A DNA stretch of 64,000 nucleotides, from NCBI RefSeq assembly GCF_000711195.1, contig NZ_JOMR01000001.1, positions 1,922,001-1,986,000 of the forward strand, read 5' to 3'. Positions 1 through 6,255 of the stretch are shown here, piece by piece. Source of the stretch: Thiomicrospira pelophila DSM 1534 (GTDB lineage: Bacteria > Pseudomonadota > Gammaproteobacteria > Thiomicrospirales > Thiomicrospiraceae). The notes under the pieces are model-generated. The model saw only the letters and a program-made list of their open reading frames with translations, was not told the DNA's origin and did no database searches. Position numbers and translations under genes: made by a program. Position 1 is the first letter of the stretch; every line of letters starts with the position of its first letter.

Positions 1-1
1 G

Positions 2-400
2 GCCTGGTTGCATACCGATGTTGAGCAAATGCCACATACTCGTTCGGCCTGGGCCTCGTGGAACTATTTAAGTGGCCAAGACCGCCAAGCTAAACAAGCG
101 GTCGCGGTGAGCTATTGGATGAACAAATTGCAACCGCTGGGCATTCAAACCGATGTATTTGTCACACTCAACCCGATTGTTGAGCCGAAAGCCGAATGTG
201 TGATTCAAAAAATTGAATACGAACATCCAGTATTTGACCGAGCGGCCATGCAAGCCCAAACCGAACTCGGGAATTTACAAGGCTACAAAAACTGTTGGTT
301 TGTGGGCGCTTATTGCGGTTACGGTTTTCATGAAGACGGCCTAGCCAGCTCGGCCGAACTCGCACAACGCTGGCAGATTAATTTGCCTTGGGAGTCTTAA
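2..400 (+). CDS. FAD/NAD(P)-dependent amine-oxidase-like oxidoreductase, C-terminal part
   Basis: The frame is already open at the window edge, so this is the last ~132 codons of a longer gene. The visible Leu-His-Thr-Asp stretch followed by Met-Pro and Trp-Ala-Ser-Trp-Asn-Tyr is the C-terminal signature of the FAD-dependent oxidoreductases (often annotated amine oxidase) encoded beside DUF1365 and CFA-type methyltransferases. The tail with Tyr-Cys-Gly-Tyr-Gly-Phe-His-Glu-Asp-Gly is the conserved end of the FAD-binding fold. It stops one base before the next gene, so it is part of the same coupled operon. Related dehydrogenases modify unsaturated fatty acyl chains; the exact substrate here cannot be read from this fragment. 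Confidence 0.85.
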   Translation, partial: AWLHTDVEQMPHTRSAWASWNYLSGQDRQAKQAVAVSYWMNKLQPLGIQTDVFVTLNPIVEPKAECVIQKIEYEHPVFDRAAMQAQTELGNLQGYKNCWFVGAYCGYGFHEDGLASSAELAQRWQINLPWES

Positions 401-401
401 G

Positions 402-1193
402 ATGGCCTCGAACCTGTATGTTGGCCAAGTGATGCACAAACGCATGCAACCAGTGGGGTATGATTTTCAATATGCCACCACCAGCATCAAAGTCGACGTA
501 GATCAAATTCAACAAGAATCAGCCAAATTACGTTGGTTGAGCTTTAACCGCTTCAACCTAGTAAGTTTAAATGAGCGTGACCACGGTGCGCGTGACGGAA
601 CCTCTTGGCGTGAGTGGATTGACGGTTTTTTTGCTGAATACAATCTACCCCGCCCAGCTCGTGTCGAACTACTTTGTTACCCGCGTATTCTAGGTTATGC
701 CTTTAACCCTTTGGCAATGTGGTATGCCTACAATAAGCAAGAGCAACTCATCGCCGTGATTGCCGAAGTCAGCAATACGTTTGGCCAATGGCATCATTAC
801 TTACTTAAACTCAATCCACAAAGCTCTAACAATTCTGCGCCTAGCCATATCAAATCCCAAGCCGATAAGGTATTTCATGTTTCACCCTTTATCGACATGC
901 AAGCACGCTATCACTTTCGTTTACGTCCGCCGACCGAGCAGGTTTATACCTATATTCGTGAAACTCGCGATGGCGAGGCCTTTTTCTTTGCGAGCCAAAC
1001 CGGAACCTATCGTGCCCTAAACGATACTAATCTGCTCAAGTTAGCTGGCTTGGCTCCGCTTCGTATGCTCAAGGTCATCGGTTTAATTCACTGGTGGGCG
1101 CTTAAAATTTGGTTAAAAGGCGGAAAATTTCACCGCACACCCAAACACTTACAGTCCGTTCAATACAGTCATTCGGAGATGTTCTTATGTTAA
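402..1193 (+). CDS. DUF1365 family protein
   Basis: The 263-residue product matches the DUF1365 family: N-terminal Gly-x-Val-x-His-x-Arg-x-x-Pro, the Asn-Pro-Leu-Ala-Met-Trp-Tyr-Ala-Tyr block around residue 110, and a central Glu-Val-x-Asn-Thr-Phe-Gly motif. It is a soluble protein of unknown biochemistry that almost always travels with an FAD oxidoreductase and a CFA-type methyltransferase. Here it lies 1 bp after the oxidoreductase and overlaps the methyltransferase start, so the three are probably co-translated. A role in modifying membrane fatty acids during photo-oxidative stress is inferred from context only. Confidence 0.88.
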   Translation: MASNLYVGQVMHKRMQPVGYDFQYATTSIKVDVDQIQQESAKLRWLSFNRFNLVSLNERDHGARDGTSWREWIDGFFAEYNLPRPARVELLCYPRILGYAFNPLAMWYAYNKQEQLIAVIAEVSNTFGQWHHYLLKLNPQSSNNSAPSHIKSQADKVFHVSPFIDMQARYHFRLRPPTEQVYTYIRETRDGEAFFFASQTGTYRALNDTNLLKLAGLAPLRMLKVIGLIHWWALKIWLKGGKFHRTPKHLQSVQYSHSEMFLC

Positions 1194-2407
1194 GCAAAAC
1201 TCAATCTAACCCGATGCCGGCTAAACGCGCTCCTTTCTACGGTGCGTTTTTATTAAAAAAACTGCCTTTTGATCAACTGGATGTAGGCTCACTAACCGTC
1301 AAAATTGGTGAACACCAACACCGTTTTAATGGCGAACACTCCGGTGTGCATGCTGACCTCGTTTTATTTAAACCTTTAAAGTTTATTTGGCTGTTACTCA
1401 CCCAAGGCGAACTCGGTTTTGCCAAAGCTTATGCTGAGGGTTTGATTGAAACCTCAAATTTACATGCTTTACTGCAACTGGGTGTGGATAACGAAGTCGC
1501 GCTATCACGTGCTTTAAAAGGCCACAGTTGGTTTTATAAACGCATGTTAAAACGCCACCAAGCCAATCATAATTCGATTGAAAACAGTCGCGAAAATATT
1601 TCCGCTCATTACGATCTTGGCAACGATTTTTACCAACTCTGGCTGGACCCCACGATGAGTTATTCGAGTGCCTTATTTATGTCACCAGATCAAGACTTGG
1701 CGGAAGCGCAAGTGGGCAAATATCAGCGCATTTTGCACGAGCTAGGTTTTGAAGAAGGAGAGCATATTTTAGAAATTGGCTGTGGCTGGGGCGGTTTTGC
1801 CGAACAAGCGGCTCGCCAAGGTGCAAAATTATCAGGCATTACCTTGTCACGCGAGCAGCTTGAATTTGCCAAACGTCGCCTACGTGAAGCAGGGCTTGAC
1901 CACCAAGCCTGCTTAAGCCTGACGGACTACCGGCATCAAGACGGCCAGTTCGATCATATCGTCAGTATCGAAATGTTTGAAGCGGTCGGCAAAGAATATT
2001 GGAACGACTACTTTGAACAACTCAAACGCTGTCTAAAACCCGGTGGCAAAGCGGTATTACAGATTATTACCATTGATGAAGACTATGCCGACTCATATCA
2101 AAACGGAGTCGACTTCATTCAAACCTATATTTTCCCGGGCGGTTTATTACCTTCAAAAACTCAATTAAATGGGTTAGCGCACGCCCATGGTTTTAGTGTG
2201 ACCAATGAACTGTCGTTTGGCCAGGATTATGCCGACACCCTATTACACTGGCGTCAACGTTTTGATCAACAGCGTCCTGCGCTTGAAAAACTCGGTTATG
2301 ACGCGCGTTTTCAACGCATCTGGCATTACTACTTGGATTACTGCCGAGTTGGTTTTGAAACCCAACGAACCGATGTGGTTCAAATCACTTTGGAGCATCA
2401 ATTATGA
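1187..2407 (+). CDS. cfa: Cyclopropane-fatty-acid synthase family SAM-dependent methyltransferase
   Basis: The 406-residue product carries the His-Tyr-Asp-Leu-Gly-Asn-Asp-Phe-Tyr block and the SAM-binding Glu-Ile-Gly-Cys-Gly-Trp-Gly-Gly loop of the CFA/mycolic-acid cyclopropane synthase family. I chose the ATG at 1187 because GGAG sits 8 bp upstream and the preceding gene ends at 1193; an in-frame codon at 1109 would run deep into DUF1365. The family methylates double bonds of membrane phospholipid acyl chains. In clusters with an FAD oxidoreductase and DUF1365, some members are instead methyltransferases of furan fatty acid synthesis, so plain cyclopropane synthase activity is likely but not certain. 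Confidence 0.9.
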   Translation: MLSKTQSNPMPAKRAPFYGAFLLKKLPFDQLDVGSLTVKIGEHQHRFNGEHSGVHADLVLFKPLKFIWLLLTQGELGFAKAYAEGLIETSNLHALLQLGVDNEVALSRALKGHSWFYKRMLKRHQANHNSIENSRENISAHYDLGNDFYQLWLDPTMSYSSALFMSPDQDLAEAQVGKYQRILHELGFEEGEHILEIGCGWGGFAEQAARQGAKLSGITLSREQLEFAKRRLREAGLDHQACLSLTDYRHQDGQFDHIVSIEMFEAVGKEYWNDYFEQLKRCLKPGGKAVLQIITIDEDYADSYQNGVDFIQTYIFPGGLLPSKTQLNGLAHAHGFSVTNELSFGQDYADTLLHWRQRFDQQRPALEKLGYDARFQRIWHYYLDYCRVGFETQRTDVVQITLEHQL

Positions 2408-2946
2408 CAAGCAAAATTCTTTTAACCTTCGCTTTAAGTTTTAGCTTACTAACAGGATGTAGCAGTATGAGCCCAAACCAATACGAACACACCGAACCTA
2501 AACTGGACTTATTTGAGTATTTCGAAGGTCAAACCTTGGCTTGGGGACAGTTTCAGTCACGTTCTGGTGAATTACAACGGCGCTTTAAGGTTGATATACA
2601 AGGTACAGTTGAAGGCGACACCTTAGTGTTAGATGAACAGTTTGTCTACGACGACGGTGAAACCGAACAACGTATTTGGACGATTAAAAAAATCGGCCAT
2701 AATCAATATGAAGGTACCGCTGGCGATGTGATTGGTAAAGCGTTTGGTCAGGCTTCCGGCTCGGTTTTCAACTGGCGCTATACGCTTGACCTGCCCTATA
2801 AAAACTCGAGTATTCACGTAAAGTTTGATGACTGGATGTTTTTACAAACCGACCAAGTCATGCTCAACCGTGCCGAAGTTACCAAGTGGGGATTCCGCGT
2901 GGGTGAAGTCACTCTATTCTTCCAAAAACCGGATAAAGCACCATGA
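2404..2946 (+). CDS. DUF3833 family lipoprotein
   Basis: A 180-residue secreted lipoprotein: hydrophobic signal followed by a Leu-Thr-Gly-Cys lipobox with the acylated Cys at residue 19. The mature part (Tyr-Phe-Glu-Gly near residue 40, Trp-Gly-x-Phe-Gln, Trp-x-Trp-Arg-Tyr near 120, Asp-Asp-Trp-Met) matches DUF3833, a lipocalin-like family regularly found in CFA/DUF1365 operons. Start and stop overlap both neighbours by an ATGA, so translation is coupled. A role in handling modified lipids at the outer membrane is an inference from fold and operon. Confidence 0.85.
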   Translation: MTSKILLTFALSFSLLTGCSSMSPNQYEHTEPKLDLFEYFEGQTLAWGQFQSRSGELQRRFKVDIQGTVEGDTLVLDEQFVYDDGETEQRIWTIKKIGHNQYEGTAGDVIGKAFGQASGSVFNWRYTLDLPYKNSSIHVKFDDWMFLQTDQVMLNRAEVTKWGFRVGEVTLFFQKPDKAP

Positions 2947-3458
2947 AACGTAGTTTTTTAATGGTCGCCACCTTGTTATTCGCCCTCACGGCTCAAGCCC
3001 AATCGTTAATAACGATTGGCGAAGCCACGGCGCGCTGGGGCTTTATTAAGCTTTACGATGCAAAGTTAAAGTTGCCCAGTAGCGTTCAGTCCAAAGACGT
3101 GCTCGCCGACCAAGTACCAGCACAACTTGAACTCTGCTACGCCCGCAGCTTAAGCGTAAATAACTTTGTAGATGGCGCAAATCATGCCCTACCAGATCAG
3201 CTAACTGCGGAACATCAGCAAGCCGTGGCGCGTTTACATGCGGCTTATCTACCCGTCAATAAAAACGACTGTTATCTACTAGAGCATACGCCAGAGCTAG
3301 GTACCGCTTTAATACTCAACGGCCAAGAACTGGTTCGCATCAACACCCCCGGGTTTAAAGCGGTATATTTTGGCATTTGGATAGGCGATGAGCCTTTGTC
3401 AGATAAACTCAAAAGCCAACTTTTGGGCCATTTAACAGCCCAGGGCGAAACGTCATGA
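2943..3458 (+). CDS. Chalcone isomerase-like domain protein, secreted
   Basis: A 171-residue product with an N-terminal signal peptide ending Ala-Gln-Ala (residues ~18-20), then a chalcone-isomerase-like fold: an early Gly-Glu-Ala-x-Ala-Arg-Trp-Gly-x-x-Lys-Leu-Tyr-Asp-Ala strand and a late Phe-Lys-Ala-Val-Tyr-Phe-Gly-Ile-Trp-Ile-Gly strand. Bacterial members of this fold are not flavonoid enzymes and probably bind fatty acids. It overlaps the genes on both sides by an ATGA and belongs to the lipid-modification operon. Periplasmic location is inferred from the signal peptide. Confidence 0.83.
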   Translation: MKRSFLMVATLLFALTAQAQSLITIGEATARWGFIKLYDAKLKLPSSVQSKDVLADQVPAQLELCYARSLSVNNFVDGANHALPDQLTAEHQQAVARLHAAYLPVNKNDCYLLEHTPELGTALILNGQELVRINTPGFKAVYFGIWIGDEPLSDKLKSQLLGHLTAQGETS

Positions 3459-4912
3459 CTAGCTTAGTCTGGTTTCAGCGCGACTTACGTCTTAGCGACC
3501 ATGCTCCGCTAATGCACGCACTAAAGCGCAATCAAAAAATGGTGTTCGCTTACTTGCATGATCCCGCGCAGACGATTGGCGAAGCAAATAATGCTTGGCT
3601 GGCTCAGAGTTTAATTGAGTTACAAAAAACGCTTCGCCTAAAAGGCGGTGAGTTATTAATGCTAGAAGGCGATTTCAGTGAAAATTTTGATCAACTTTTA
3701 CGACATTATCAAATTGATGAGGTGTTATATCACTACGAAGTAGGTGAACCTTTTTTAAGCCAACAAAACTTAGTTTTGCAGATTTGCCAGCAATATCAAA
3801 TCCGCCTGCAACCTTTCGACCAGGCCTGGTATCCGGCTGAACAAGTTCTGACGCAAAAAGGCCAAAATTATTCGGTATTTACGCCGTTTTATAAAAAGCT
3901 ACTAACGCTATTAAACCAGGTAGCTTACCCCTTAGAAGCCCCCAAAGATTTAAAGCCATCTAACCCAGAAAAATCGCCTTTAACAACTTGGCTTGATTTA
4001 CCCAGCTCGTTACACAAAATCCGCCAAACGCCTTGGGCGAAACGCATGATATCGCATTGGCAAGTTGGCGAGAACCAGGCCTGGAGTCGGGTAAAAAGCT
4101 TTTGTGATGGATCGTTAAACAACTATCCCACTCAACGTGACTATCCTGCTGAGCCAGCTACCAGCAAGTTATCTGTCCACTTACAATTTGGTGAGCTTTC
4201 GACTCGAGAACTGCTACATCACCTACAACATTTAAAGCGTCTCCCAGATTACGACACTCATGCGATTGATAGCCTTATTCGCCAGCTCGCTTGGCGTGAA
4301 TTTGGACGTTACTTGTTGCACTTTAATCCATTACTAGAACGCGAAAGTTTTCAGTCCAAATTTGTAAATTTTCCGTGGGACGATGACGAAGATAACCTAC
4401 TGGATTGGCAACAAGGACAAACTGGCGTGCCGATTATTGATGCTGGAATGCGAGAGCTATGGCAAACCGGCTGGATGCACAACCGAGTTCGTATGCTGGT
4501 CGCATCCTGGTTAACCAAGAATGCCAACTTAAGCTGGCGCGAAGGCCAGGCCTGGTTTGCCAACACCCTAATCGATGCTGATCCGGCCAACAATGCAATG
4601 GGCTGGCAATGGGTCGCCGGCTGTGGTGTAGATGCCGCTCCCTATTACCGTTTATTTAACCCGGTAGTGCAAAGTGAGCGTTTTGACCCACAAGCTGAAT
4701 ACATTAAACACTGGCTACCTGAGCTTAAACTAATACCCGCAAAATGGGTGCATGCGCCGTGGCAACACCAAAACAAGATACTTTCGTTGGGGTTCGATTT
4801 AATAAAAATTTATCCAATTCCGAAAATTGATTTGGCGCGAAGTCGCCACGATCACTTAGATCGAGTGCAAGCTCAAAAAACTTATACGCAAGCATTACAG
4901 TTGCAAAATTAA
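3455..4912 (+). CDS. phrB: Deoxyribodipyrimidine photolyase (class I CPD type)
   Basis: The 485-residue product has the N-terminal photolyase domain (Leu-Val-Trp-Phe-Gln-Arg-Asp-Leu-Arg-Leu-Ser-Asp-His) and the FAD-binding C-terminal domain, with Gly-Glu-Leu-Ser-Thr-Arg, Leu-Ala-Trp-Arg-Glu-Phe, Gly-Val-Pro-Ile-Ile-Asp-Ala-Gly-Met-Arg-Glu-Leu, Trp-Met-His-Asn-Arg-Val-Arg-Met and Asp-Ala-Asp-Pro-Ala-Asn-Asn. It repairs cyclobutane pyrimidine dimers with blue-light energy. It overlaps the preceding gene by an ATGA and lies 25 bp before the LitR-like regulator. Oddly, the gene holds three copies of CCAGGCCTGG, each read as Gln-Ala-Trp. Confidence 0.95.
   Translation: MTSLVWFQRDLRLSDHAPLMHALKRNQKMVFAYLHDPAQTIGEANNAWLAQSLIELQKTLRLKGGELLMLEGDFSENFDQLLRHYQIDEVLYHYEVGEPFLSQQNLVLQICQQYQIRLQPFDQAWYPAEQVLTQKGQNYSVFTPFYKKLLTLLNQVAYPLEAPKDLKPSNPEKSPLTTWLDLPSSLHKIRQTPWAKRMISHWQVGENQAWSRVKSFCDGSLNNYPTQRDYPAEPATSKLSVHLQFGELSTRELLHHLQHLKRLPDYDTHAIDSLIRQLAWREFGRYLLHFNPLLERESFQSKFVNFPWDDDEDNLLDWQQGQTGVPIIDAGMRELWQTGWMHNRVRMLVASWLTKNANLSWREGQAWFANTLIDADPANNAMGWQWVAGCGVDAAPYYRLFNPVVQSERFDPQAEYIKHWLPELKLIPAKWVHAPWQHQNKILSLGFDLIKIYPIPKIDLARSRHDHLDRVQAQKTYTQALQLQN
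3820..3829. repeat. CCAGGCCTGG in phrB, copy 1
   Basis: Read in frame as Gln-Ala-Trp (context Asp-Gln-Ala-Trp-Tyr), with flanking A and T giving the 12-bp form. Confidence 0.95.
4075..4084. repeat. CCAGGCCTGG in phrB, copy 2
   Basis: Read as Gln-Ala-Trp (Asn-Gln-Ala-Trp-Ser). The right flank is A, so only the decamer is perfect. Confidence 0.95.
4546..4555. repeat. CCAGGCCTGG in phrB, copy 3
   Basis: Read as Gln-Ala-Trp (Gly-Gln-Ala-Trp-Phe). The left flank is G. Confidence 0.95.
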
Positions 4913-4937: not shown

Positions 4938-5801
4938 ATGAATTCAATTGATCAGAACGCCCTCTATCCAATCCGAGAAGTTTCCCGTCTAACTGGCGTG
5001 AAGCCCATTACACTGCGCGCCTGGGAAAGACGCTACGACCTGATCGAACCCGTCAGAACTGAATCAGGCCATCGTCTATACACACAAGAACATATTGATT
5101 TTTTAAATCAGGCGCTCAAATTAATGGACGAAGGTATTCCGGTAAGCCGGGTCAAAGCGGTTTTATCTGAAAGTAGCACACCAGATATAGCGCATAGTGA
5201 CTTATCTGATCCAGTGGAGCAACTTGCGATACTGGATAAGGCTTTGCAAGCGGTTGAACAACTTAATCTCGGTAAGATTCAGCGAGTATTAGATCGTTTA
5301 CTAGCCGATTACAGCCTGTCTCCTTTACTCGAACTCTTAGTCGAACTGGATAACCGCTTTAAAGCTAACAAAACAAACCCACTTGCCACTAAAATTTGGC
5401 ACGGTGCACTGCAAGAGCGCTTGCATGTTCGGCTTCACCACTTTCAAGTTCGTAGCCATCAACCAAGCAAGCGAATCTTTATTCAATCCGCCAGCAAAAG
5501 TCATGACTGGATTACTAAACTTGTCGCCGTATTTTGCTTCGAGCAAGGTTATCAGCCAATTAGTTTAGATGAGATAGTTCCATTTGAAAAACTGGAAGAA
5601 GTGATCAAACCACTCAACATTTATGGTGTGATTTTAATTGATAAAAATGCAACGTCTACAATGGAATGGCAAGTTTGGTTTCAGCACTTTGCTAGCATGC
5701 GCACTTGGGTGATGGGAAGTGACGAGATTGAAGAGCAGCAACCACCCAGTGTTAATTGTGAATTACGCGGCTGGCCAAATTGGTTTTCGCGACTCGCTTA
5801 A
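4938..5801 (+). CDS. MerR-family LitR/CarH/MlrA-like regulator with a degenerate C-terminal domain
   Basis: Residues ~10-80 form a MerR winged helix with Pro-Ile-Arg-Glu-Val-Ser-Arg-Leu-Thr-Gly-Val and Leu-Arg-Ala-Trp-Glu-Arg-Arg-Tyr, the signature of the LitR/CarH/MlrA branch. The remaining ~200 residues should be the cobalamin-binding region of CarH/LitR, but I see no Glu-x-His or Asp-x-His-x-x-Gly motif there, so adenosylcobalamin binding is probably lost, as in the B12-independent LitR classes. It follows the photolyase by 25 bp and converges with a short LOV gene. The likely role is repression of the lipid/photolyase operon in the dark; this is inferred from context and from similar Pseudomonas modules. 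Confidence 0.82.
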   Translation: MNSIDQNALYPIREVSRLTGVKPITLRAWERRYDLIEPVRTESGHRLYTQEHIDFLNQALKLMDEGIPVSRVKAVLSESSTPDIAHSDLSDPVEQLAILDKALQAVEQLNLGKIQRVLDRLLADYSLSPLLELLVELDNRFKANKTNPLATKIWHGALQERLHVRLHHFQVRSHQPSKRIFIQSASKSHDWITKLVAVFCFEQGYQPISLDEIVPFEKLEEVIKPLNIYGVILIDKNATSTMEWQVWFQHFASMRTWVMGSDEIEEQQPPSVNCELRGWPNWFSRLA

Positions 5802-5802
5802 A

Positions 5803-6243
5803 CTATCGCGCTTTAAGTTGCGCAATTTCGGCCTTCGCCGCTTTTAAGTCCAAGGCTAATTCCACTTGTGCGGTTACATCTTTTTGAATTCCGATGTAAT
5901 AAGTAATCTTATCTAGTTCATCATAAAAAGGCGTCACGCTTAATTCATTCCAAAAAGCTGAGCCGTCTTTGCGATAGTTTTTCAAAACGGTTCTACTAGG
6001 TTGAGTTTGCTCAATCGCTTCACGTATACTTTGCACTGCAGCCTGATCGGTATCGTCACCTTGCAAAAAACGACAATCTTGATACAAAATATCTTCCGAA
6101 GAATAACCTGTTAACCTTTCAAATGCCGGGTTCACATAAACCAAAATGGTATCTTCACCTTCTTTCTCAGCCAGTACAATGCCATCTTGCGCATTCTCTA
6201 CCAACTGCAACAACAACTCATTTCGTAAATTAAACTTCTTCAT
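5803..6243 (-). CDS. Short LOV-domain blue-light photoreceptor
   Basis: The 146-residue protein is almost entirely one LOV/PAS domain. It has the photoactive cysteine in Tyr-Gln-Asp-Cys-Arg-Phe-Leu-Gln-Gly-Asp-Asp (Cys57), the FMN-contacting Asn-Tyr-Arg-Lys-Asp-Gly-Ser-x-Phe-Trp-Asn-Glu-Leu block, and Tyr-x-Ile-Gly-Ile-Gln-Lys-Asp-Val at the last strand. A helical, probably coiled-coil tail follows (residues ~120-146). From memory it closely resembles the short LOV protein SB1 of Pseudomonas putida. The residue before the Cys is Asp, where most LOV domains have Asn. I chose the ATG at 6243 because GGGA precedes it and it matches the family length; an ATG at 6255 adds four residues. With no output domain it must act through a partner, most simply the adjacent LitR-like regulator. 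Confidence 0.93.
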   Translation of the reverse strand: MKKFNLRNELLLQLVENAQDGIVLAEKEGEDTILVYVNPAFERLTGYSSEDILYQDCRFLQGDDTDQAAVQSIREAIEQTQPSRTVLKNYRKDGSAFWNELSVTPFYDELDKITYYIGIQKDVTAQVELALDLKAAKAEIAQLKAR

Positions 6244-6255
6244 GCTGCATCCCAT

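Follow-up and report, generated by a model that had tools for sequence, protein, structure and literature searches.

Organization of the locus

The locus lies at the start of a stretch of 64,000 nucleotides of Thiomicrospira pelophila DSM 1534 (contig NZ_JOMR01000001.1, positions 1,922,001 to 1,986,000), hereafter called the window; the genome comprises 2.1 Mb in a single contig. An operon on the forward strand enters the window with the 3' part of its first gene, which codes for an FAD oxidoreductase (1..400, +) and has its start outside, 881 bp before the first base (L066:7121). It continues with genes for a DUF1365 protein (402..1193, +; PF07103), a Cfa/UfaM-like fatty-acid methyltransferase (1187..2407, +; PF02353, CMAS/Cfa-type), a DUF3833 protein (2404..2946, +; PF12915), a chalcone-isomerase-like protein (2943..3458, +; PF16036) and a PhrB-type DNA photolyase (phrB; 3455..4912, +). 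The methyltransferase scored below the NCBIfam cut-offs for true Cfa and is compatible with UfaM of the Pseudomonas mendocina cluster. The genes for the DUF3833 protein, the chalcone-isomerase-like protein and the photolyase each overlap the preceding gene by 4 bp (2404/2407, 2943/2946 and 3455/3458), and only 25 bp separate phrB from the gene of the MerR-type regulator LitR on the same strand (4938-5801, +; 287 aa). Because of these overlaps and the short spacing LitR looks like the terminal gene of the operon, more than a mere neighbour. This agrees with a preliminary description of the window, which had placed the regulator directly after a photolyase/CFA-type operon. At its other end the FAD-oxidoreductase operon is faced by a divergent SDR/SnoaL/MFS operon across a shared intergenic region.

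Downstream, LitR converges with the gene of a short LOV blue-light sensor (5803-6243, -; 146 aa). The stop codons are 1 bp apart, as had been described. No terminator was recognised at position 5802 or around the two convergent stops, and read-through of the induced operon into an antisense transcript of the LOV gene is conceivable.

The short LOV protein

The open reading frame of the LOV gene spans 5803-6255 (-; 150 aa), yet the ATG at 6243 fits the N-terminus that is conserved among the LOV relatives. The preliminary description of a LOV protein with the photoactive cysteine motif and no output domain held: the motif reads DCRFLQ with Cys57, and within the 146 amino acids only PAS/LOV domains were matched. 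Cys57, N89, N99 and Q120 were invariant in an alignment of 19 sequences; the latter three are the positions matching flavin-contacting residues of PpSB1-LOV from P. putida. The nearest solved structures were short LOV proteins of the Pseudomonas type (E 7e-54). No other short LOV gene is present in the genome, where the remaining PAS matches sit in large open frames. Arg61 and Arg66, which mark the slow dark recovery of PpSB1-LOV, correspond to Thr65 and Val70 in the Thiomicrospira protein. Mutation of these arginines in PpSB1-LOV accelerated dark recovery 280-fold (PMC5314338), so a faster dark recovery than that of PpSB1-LOV is predicted here.

The regulator LitR

LitR carries a MerR_1 domain (Pfam), and its HTH is nearly identical to that of Pseudomonas LitR proteins from LOV loci. 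With its alignment profile, LitR could be matched to Thermus thermophilus CarH (E 1.6e-29) along the HTH and a large part of the C-terminal half, which is degenerate in LitR. An AlphaFold2 model (mean pLDDT 86, pTM 0.65) displayed a four-helix bundle and a Rossmann-like domain, and its top PDB matches were CarH structures. Thus, the MerR/LitR-like regulator of the preliminary description was confirmed by its domain match and its CarH-like C-terminal half. The genome encodes no other protein of this kind; the second match was a weak and distant MerR.

In the CarH structure W131, E141, H142 and H177 contact B12. The corresponding columns of LitR contain a gap, T, K and D, respectively, i.e. none is conserved, and a domain search of LitR yielded no B12-binding Pfam match. 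The loss of these residues makes light sensing via B12 unlikely, and LitR appears to be a CarH descendant that is seemingly unable to hold B12. The combination of a LitR/CarH-type MerR HTH with a CarH-related C-terminal half lacking the B12-contact residues would place it in class II of the LitR proteins. In a profile comparison the C-terminus matched the C-termini of Pseudomonas LitR with a probability of 96% at about 13% identity. With a C-terminal half that divergent, the contact to LOV could have changed compared with Pseudomonas.

Linkage of LOV and LitR in Thiomicrospiraceae

We surveyed 63 genomes of the family, 37 with a LOV gene and 39 with a LitR match. LOV was adjacent to and convergent with LitR in 37/37 LOV-bearing genomes, which argues that the adjacency is more than chance. 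Regarding a frequent separation of the two genes in relatives, which had been raised as an argument against a functional pair, LOV without LitR never occurred, and LitR without LOV was seen in two of the 39 LitR genomes. One of them (G001) has a weak, degenerate LitR match with an internal stop; in the other (G048; L283) LitR and phrB are intact while LOV is gone. This natural loss of LOV may serve as a test case for the dependence of the regulon on LOV. Three loci from MAGs (L004-L006) have LitR and the other operon genes without a photolyase in between, so the link of LOV to LitR is tighter than that to the photolyase. Outside the family, most Pseudomonas and Oceanospirillales loci likewise had LitR no more than a few kb away from LOV.

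A predicted CarH-type operator

PmlR2, a LitR of P. mendocina, binds TGTACA-N12-TGTACA (PMC9758184). As TGTACA-N11-13-TGTACA had no match anywhere in the host genome, the search was moved to an 11-bp repeat. The intergenic region shared by the FAD-oxidoreductase operon and the divergent SDR operon contains TGTATA-N5-TGTATA as a putative operator (G000:C1:1921060-1921085, about 0.9 kb before base 1 of the window). For the family we used the pattern TGTAYA-N5-TGTAYA, an 11-bp direct repeat, with the reversed pattern as a control. In one related genome (L009) three such repeats follow each other in steps of exactly 11 bp. The operators of CarH consist of a tandem 11-bp TnnACA repeat (PMC9304148), and the pattern fits a predicted operator of the CarH type.

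The host genome contains the pattern at seven places, the operon promoter and six others. Among the 63 family genomes there were 3.86 matches per genome with LOV compared to 0.46 without LOV, while the reversed pattern gave 0.32 and 0.31, respectively; the motif had been chosen from the host genome's own operon promoter. Each LOV-bearing genome had at least one match. The Mann-Whitney p of 2.5e-10 for this difference is only a guide, because of this choice of the motif, the shared ancestry of the genomes and the counting of palindromic places on both strands. In the LOV-bearing relatives 51/123 places were at most 25 kb from LitR. The genome that had lost LOV beside an intact LitR was devoid of the repeat genome-wide, and a version with one mismatch was absent around its LitR.

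We also considered a new operator type specific to the family. This was dropped, as the 11-bp spacing is common to Pseudomonas LOV loci: these contained 30 pairs at this spacing, against none in the reversed control.

Since LitR resembles CarH in fold as well as in operator, it might itself be the photosensor, using adenosyl-B12 as CarH does, with LOV being unrelated. We give this hardly any credence. The residues of the B12 site are missing from LitR, and an unrelated LOV gene is at odds with its unbroken linkage to LitR. B12 photosensing by LitR is thus unsupported.

Predicted regulon

The gene context was studied at 72 places of LOV-bearing relatives far from LitR, about 62 of which are intergenic by crude ORF calls. 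Two gene families recurred beside them, ovoA for the synthesis of the antioxidant ovothiol (TIGR04344/TIGR04345) and hemH for ferrochelatase of haem synthesis (TIGR00109). We then compared the upstream regions of both genes, allowing at most one mismatch in the repeat and counting only family genomes that possess the gene. The repeat preceded ovoA in 24/35 genomes with LOV and in 0/10 without (Fisher p 1e-4). For hemH the numbers were 32/42 copies in genomes with LOV and 1/21 in genomes without (Fisher p 5e-8). The reversed pattern scored 0 in every group. Within a single sister genus (g3) the repeat preceded hemH in 7/7 cases with LOV and 0/5 without, and in four genomes with two hemH copies only the copy inside the LitR cluster carried it. 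Some LOV-bearing genomes had no recognisable site at ovoA or hemH.

In the host genome the repeat is located at L068:3095 (G000:C1:219094), 55 bp upstream of ovoA, which is followed by a gene for a PatB-type C-S lyase (L068:3166-6505); the latter would suit OvoB. A second repeat (L071:3160; G000:C1:1850159) precedes hemH (L071:3211-4329). Repeat-type sites also occur in this genome before redox genes, namely those of a PrxQ-type peroxiredoxin (L070:3644) and of SCO1/SenC (L067:3457). Two further sites (L069:6856 and L068:8820) precede PAS-domain chemoreceptor genes, with similar ones in some relatives; whether sites near this type of gene (a cluster of 10 proteins) have a meaning is uncertain, as genes of this kind are abundant and the sites may be due to chance. 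A palindromic site at G000:224819 is possibly that of a different regulator.

Besides those at the peroxiredoxin and SCO1 genes, additional places lie before photolyases and RudS (desulfidase-DUF1722), the latter having been linked to light operons (PMC11417400). In a second genome of the same genus (G055) a repeat at L284:5594 lies some 60 bp ahead of an operon (L284:1-5534) that begins with a rhodopsin gene of the bacteriorhodopsin family (PF01036), followed by crtE-, crtI-, crtB- and crtY-like genes and a possible gene for retinal cleavage. This may be a light-gated operon for the use of light energy. Furthermore, hemH is found within the LitR/LOV neighbourhood of some Pseudomonadaceae and of Paenalcaligenes; its association with light control may therefore be of long standing.

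A regulon of this composition is reminiscent of the singlet-oxygen response. The targets of RpoE2-ChrR in Shewanella oneidensis include a phrB-cfa operon and the ferrochelatase paralogue hemH2 (PMC4336711), and an ECF sigma factor RpoE with its anti-sigma factor ChrR could run the Thiomicrospira operon, the LOV-LitR neighbours being incidental. This is very improbable. In contrast to S. oneidensis with its sigma/anti-sigma pair, 0/63 family genomes contained a ChrR over the cut-off, the weak partial matches reaching 20-39 bits against 124.5, and the operon promoter has the CarH/LitR-type repeat instead. Control by ChrR was thus left unsupported.

A probable two-protein switch

We consider it very probable that the locus is a two-protein blue-light anti-repressor switch over photoprotection genes. 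In P. mendocina PmSB-LOV, once illuminated, binds to PmlR2 and takes it off its DNA sites (PMC9758184). By analogy, LitR would occupy the TGTAYA-N5-TGTAYA repeats over its promoters in the dark and repress them. In blue light, Cys57 of LOV, a protein separate from LitR, would form an adduct with the flavin, and the lit LOV would bind LitR, possibly via the HTH as in P. mendocina, and take it off the DNA. Release of LitR would de-repress the FAD-oxidoreductase/UfaM-like/photolyase/LitR operon and the divergent SDR/SnoaL/MFS operon, as well as ovoA with the PatB-type gene, hemH and probably a few others. As the last gene of the induced operon LitR would exert negative feedback, and dark decay of the adduct would reset the switch. 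The light-dependent contact of LOV and LitR, the direction of control and repression as such are inferred from P. mendocina.

The preliminary description had already proposed that LOV releases LitR from the operon. Homology, the unbroken linkage, the LOV and CarH-type architectures, the loss of the B12 residues and the LOV-dependent abundance of operators, all obtained by computation, support this as a prediction. P. putida had been named as the precedent. Genetic evidence for LOV/LitR control in this species is indeed cited, yet the experimental precedent is P. mendocina (PMC9758184). Beyond the reach of the earlier proposal were the predicted operator, the divergent operon and the broader predicted regulon with ovoA and hemH.

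Alternatively, LOV and LitR may be linked but no longer interact, with LitR answering another signal or LOV having another partner. The strong divergence of the C-terminal half from Pseudomonas LitR would suit such an uncoupling, as would the genome that keeps an intact LitR beside phrB without LOV. On the other hand, LOV and the HTH of LitR are strongly conserved, and the HTH is the LOV-binding part of the P. mendocina LitR (PMC9758184). The lack of any LOV without LitR in the family, the concomitant loss of the operator repeats in the genome without LOV and the photoprotective nature of the predicted targets also argue for a working pair. An uncoupled pair is therefore unlikely, and we favor the anti-repressor switch.

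Comparison with known systems

In Escherichia coli a separate blue-light receptor, BluF, counteracts the MerR-type repressor BluR; its flavin domain is of the BLUF class, not LOV. BluF/BluR has been named as the second light system with a MerR regulator (PMC9758184). T. thermophilus CarH, a class I member of the LitR/CarH proteins, shares the fold and the 11-bp TnnACA direct-repeat operator, but senses light itself with adenosyl-B12, whereas LitR of Thiomicrospira is without the B12-contact residues.

The closest likeness is to the class II LitR system PmSB-LOV/PmlR2: a short LOV beside a B12-independent LitR, light-induced genes for photolyase, a UfaM-type enzyme, FAD oxidoreductase and SDR (here predicted from gene content) and TGTACA-like operator elements, with TGTATA-N5-TGTATA as the Thiomicrospira version. 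Yet P. mendocina has two LitR proteins; its LOV lies beside pmlR2 and fol genes, while a phrB-ufaM operon is located elsewhere with pmlR1, and the mapped operator spacing is N12 instead of N5. In Thiomicrospira there is just one pair, its two genes converging at a distance of 1 bp; LitR ends the phrB/UfaM-like operon, and ovoA and hemH are predicted targets. P. putida KT2440 possesses the same sensor and regulator families with light-inducible phrB and ufaM (PMC9758184), but three regulators (PplR1-3) and two LOV proteins (PpSB1- and PpSB2-LOV).

The LOV/LitR switch itself has already been published and the Thiomicrospira pair is a further case. What is new is the compact one-pair form of the switch in a family of sulfur oxidisers, the unbroken linkage of the pair there and a predicted regulon extended by ovothiol and, in a single species, by an operon for rhodopsin and carotenoids. 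In the literature searched there was no report of LOV proteins or of control by light in Thiomicrospira, nor of photoreceptor control of bacterial ovothiol synthesis.

A bacterial light switch recently described in pseudomonads, which are heterotrophs, is hereby extended to a lineage of sulfur oxidisers. LitR represents a CarH-type protein that kept fold and operator, while light sensing apparently resides in a partner protein. With one sensor and one repressor this form should lend itself more readily to dissection than the Pseudomonas version with its several paralogues, and the predicted targets ovoA and hemH would widen the known role of the switch. We see about an even chance that in Thiomicrospiraceae one LOV-LitR switch puts ovoA, hemH, photolyase and the UfaM-like enzyme under blue-light control, and in at least one species the rhodopsin-carotenoid operon too, such that a chemolithoautotroph lineage would shield itself from light and use it on one and the same signal.
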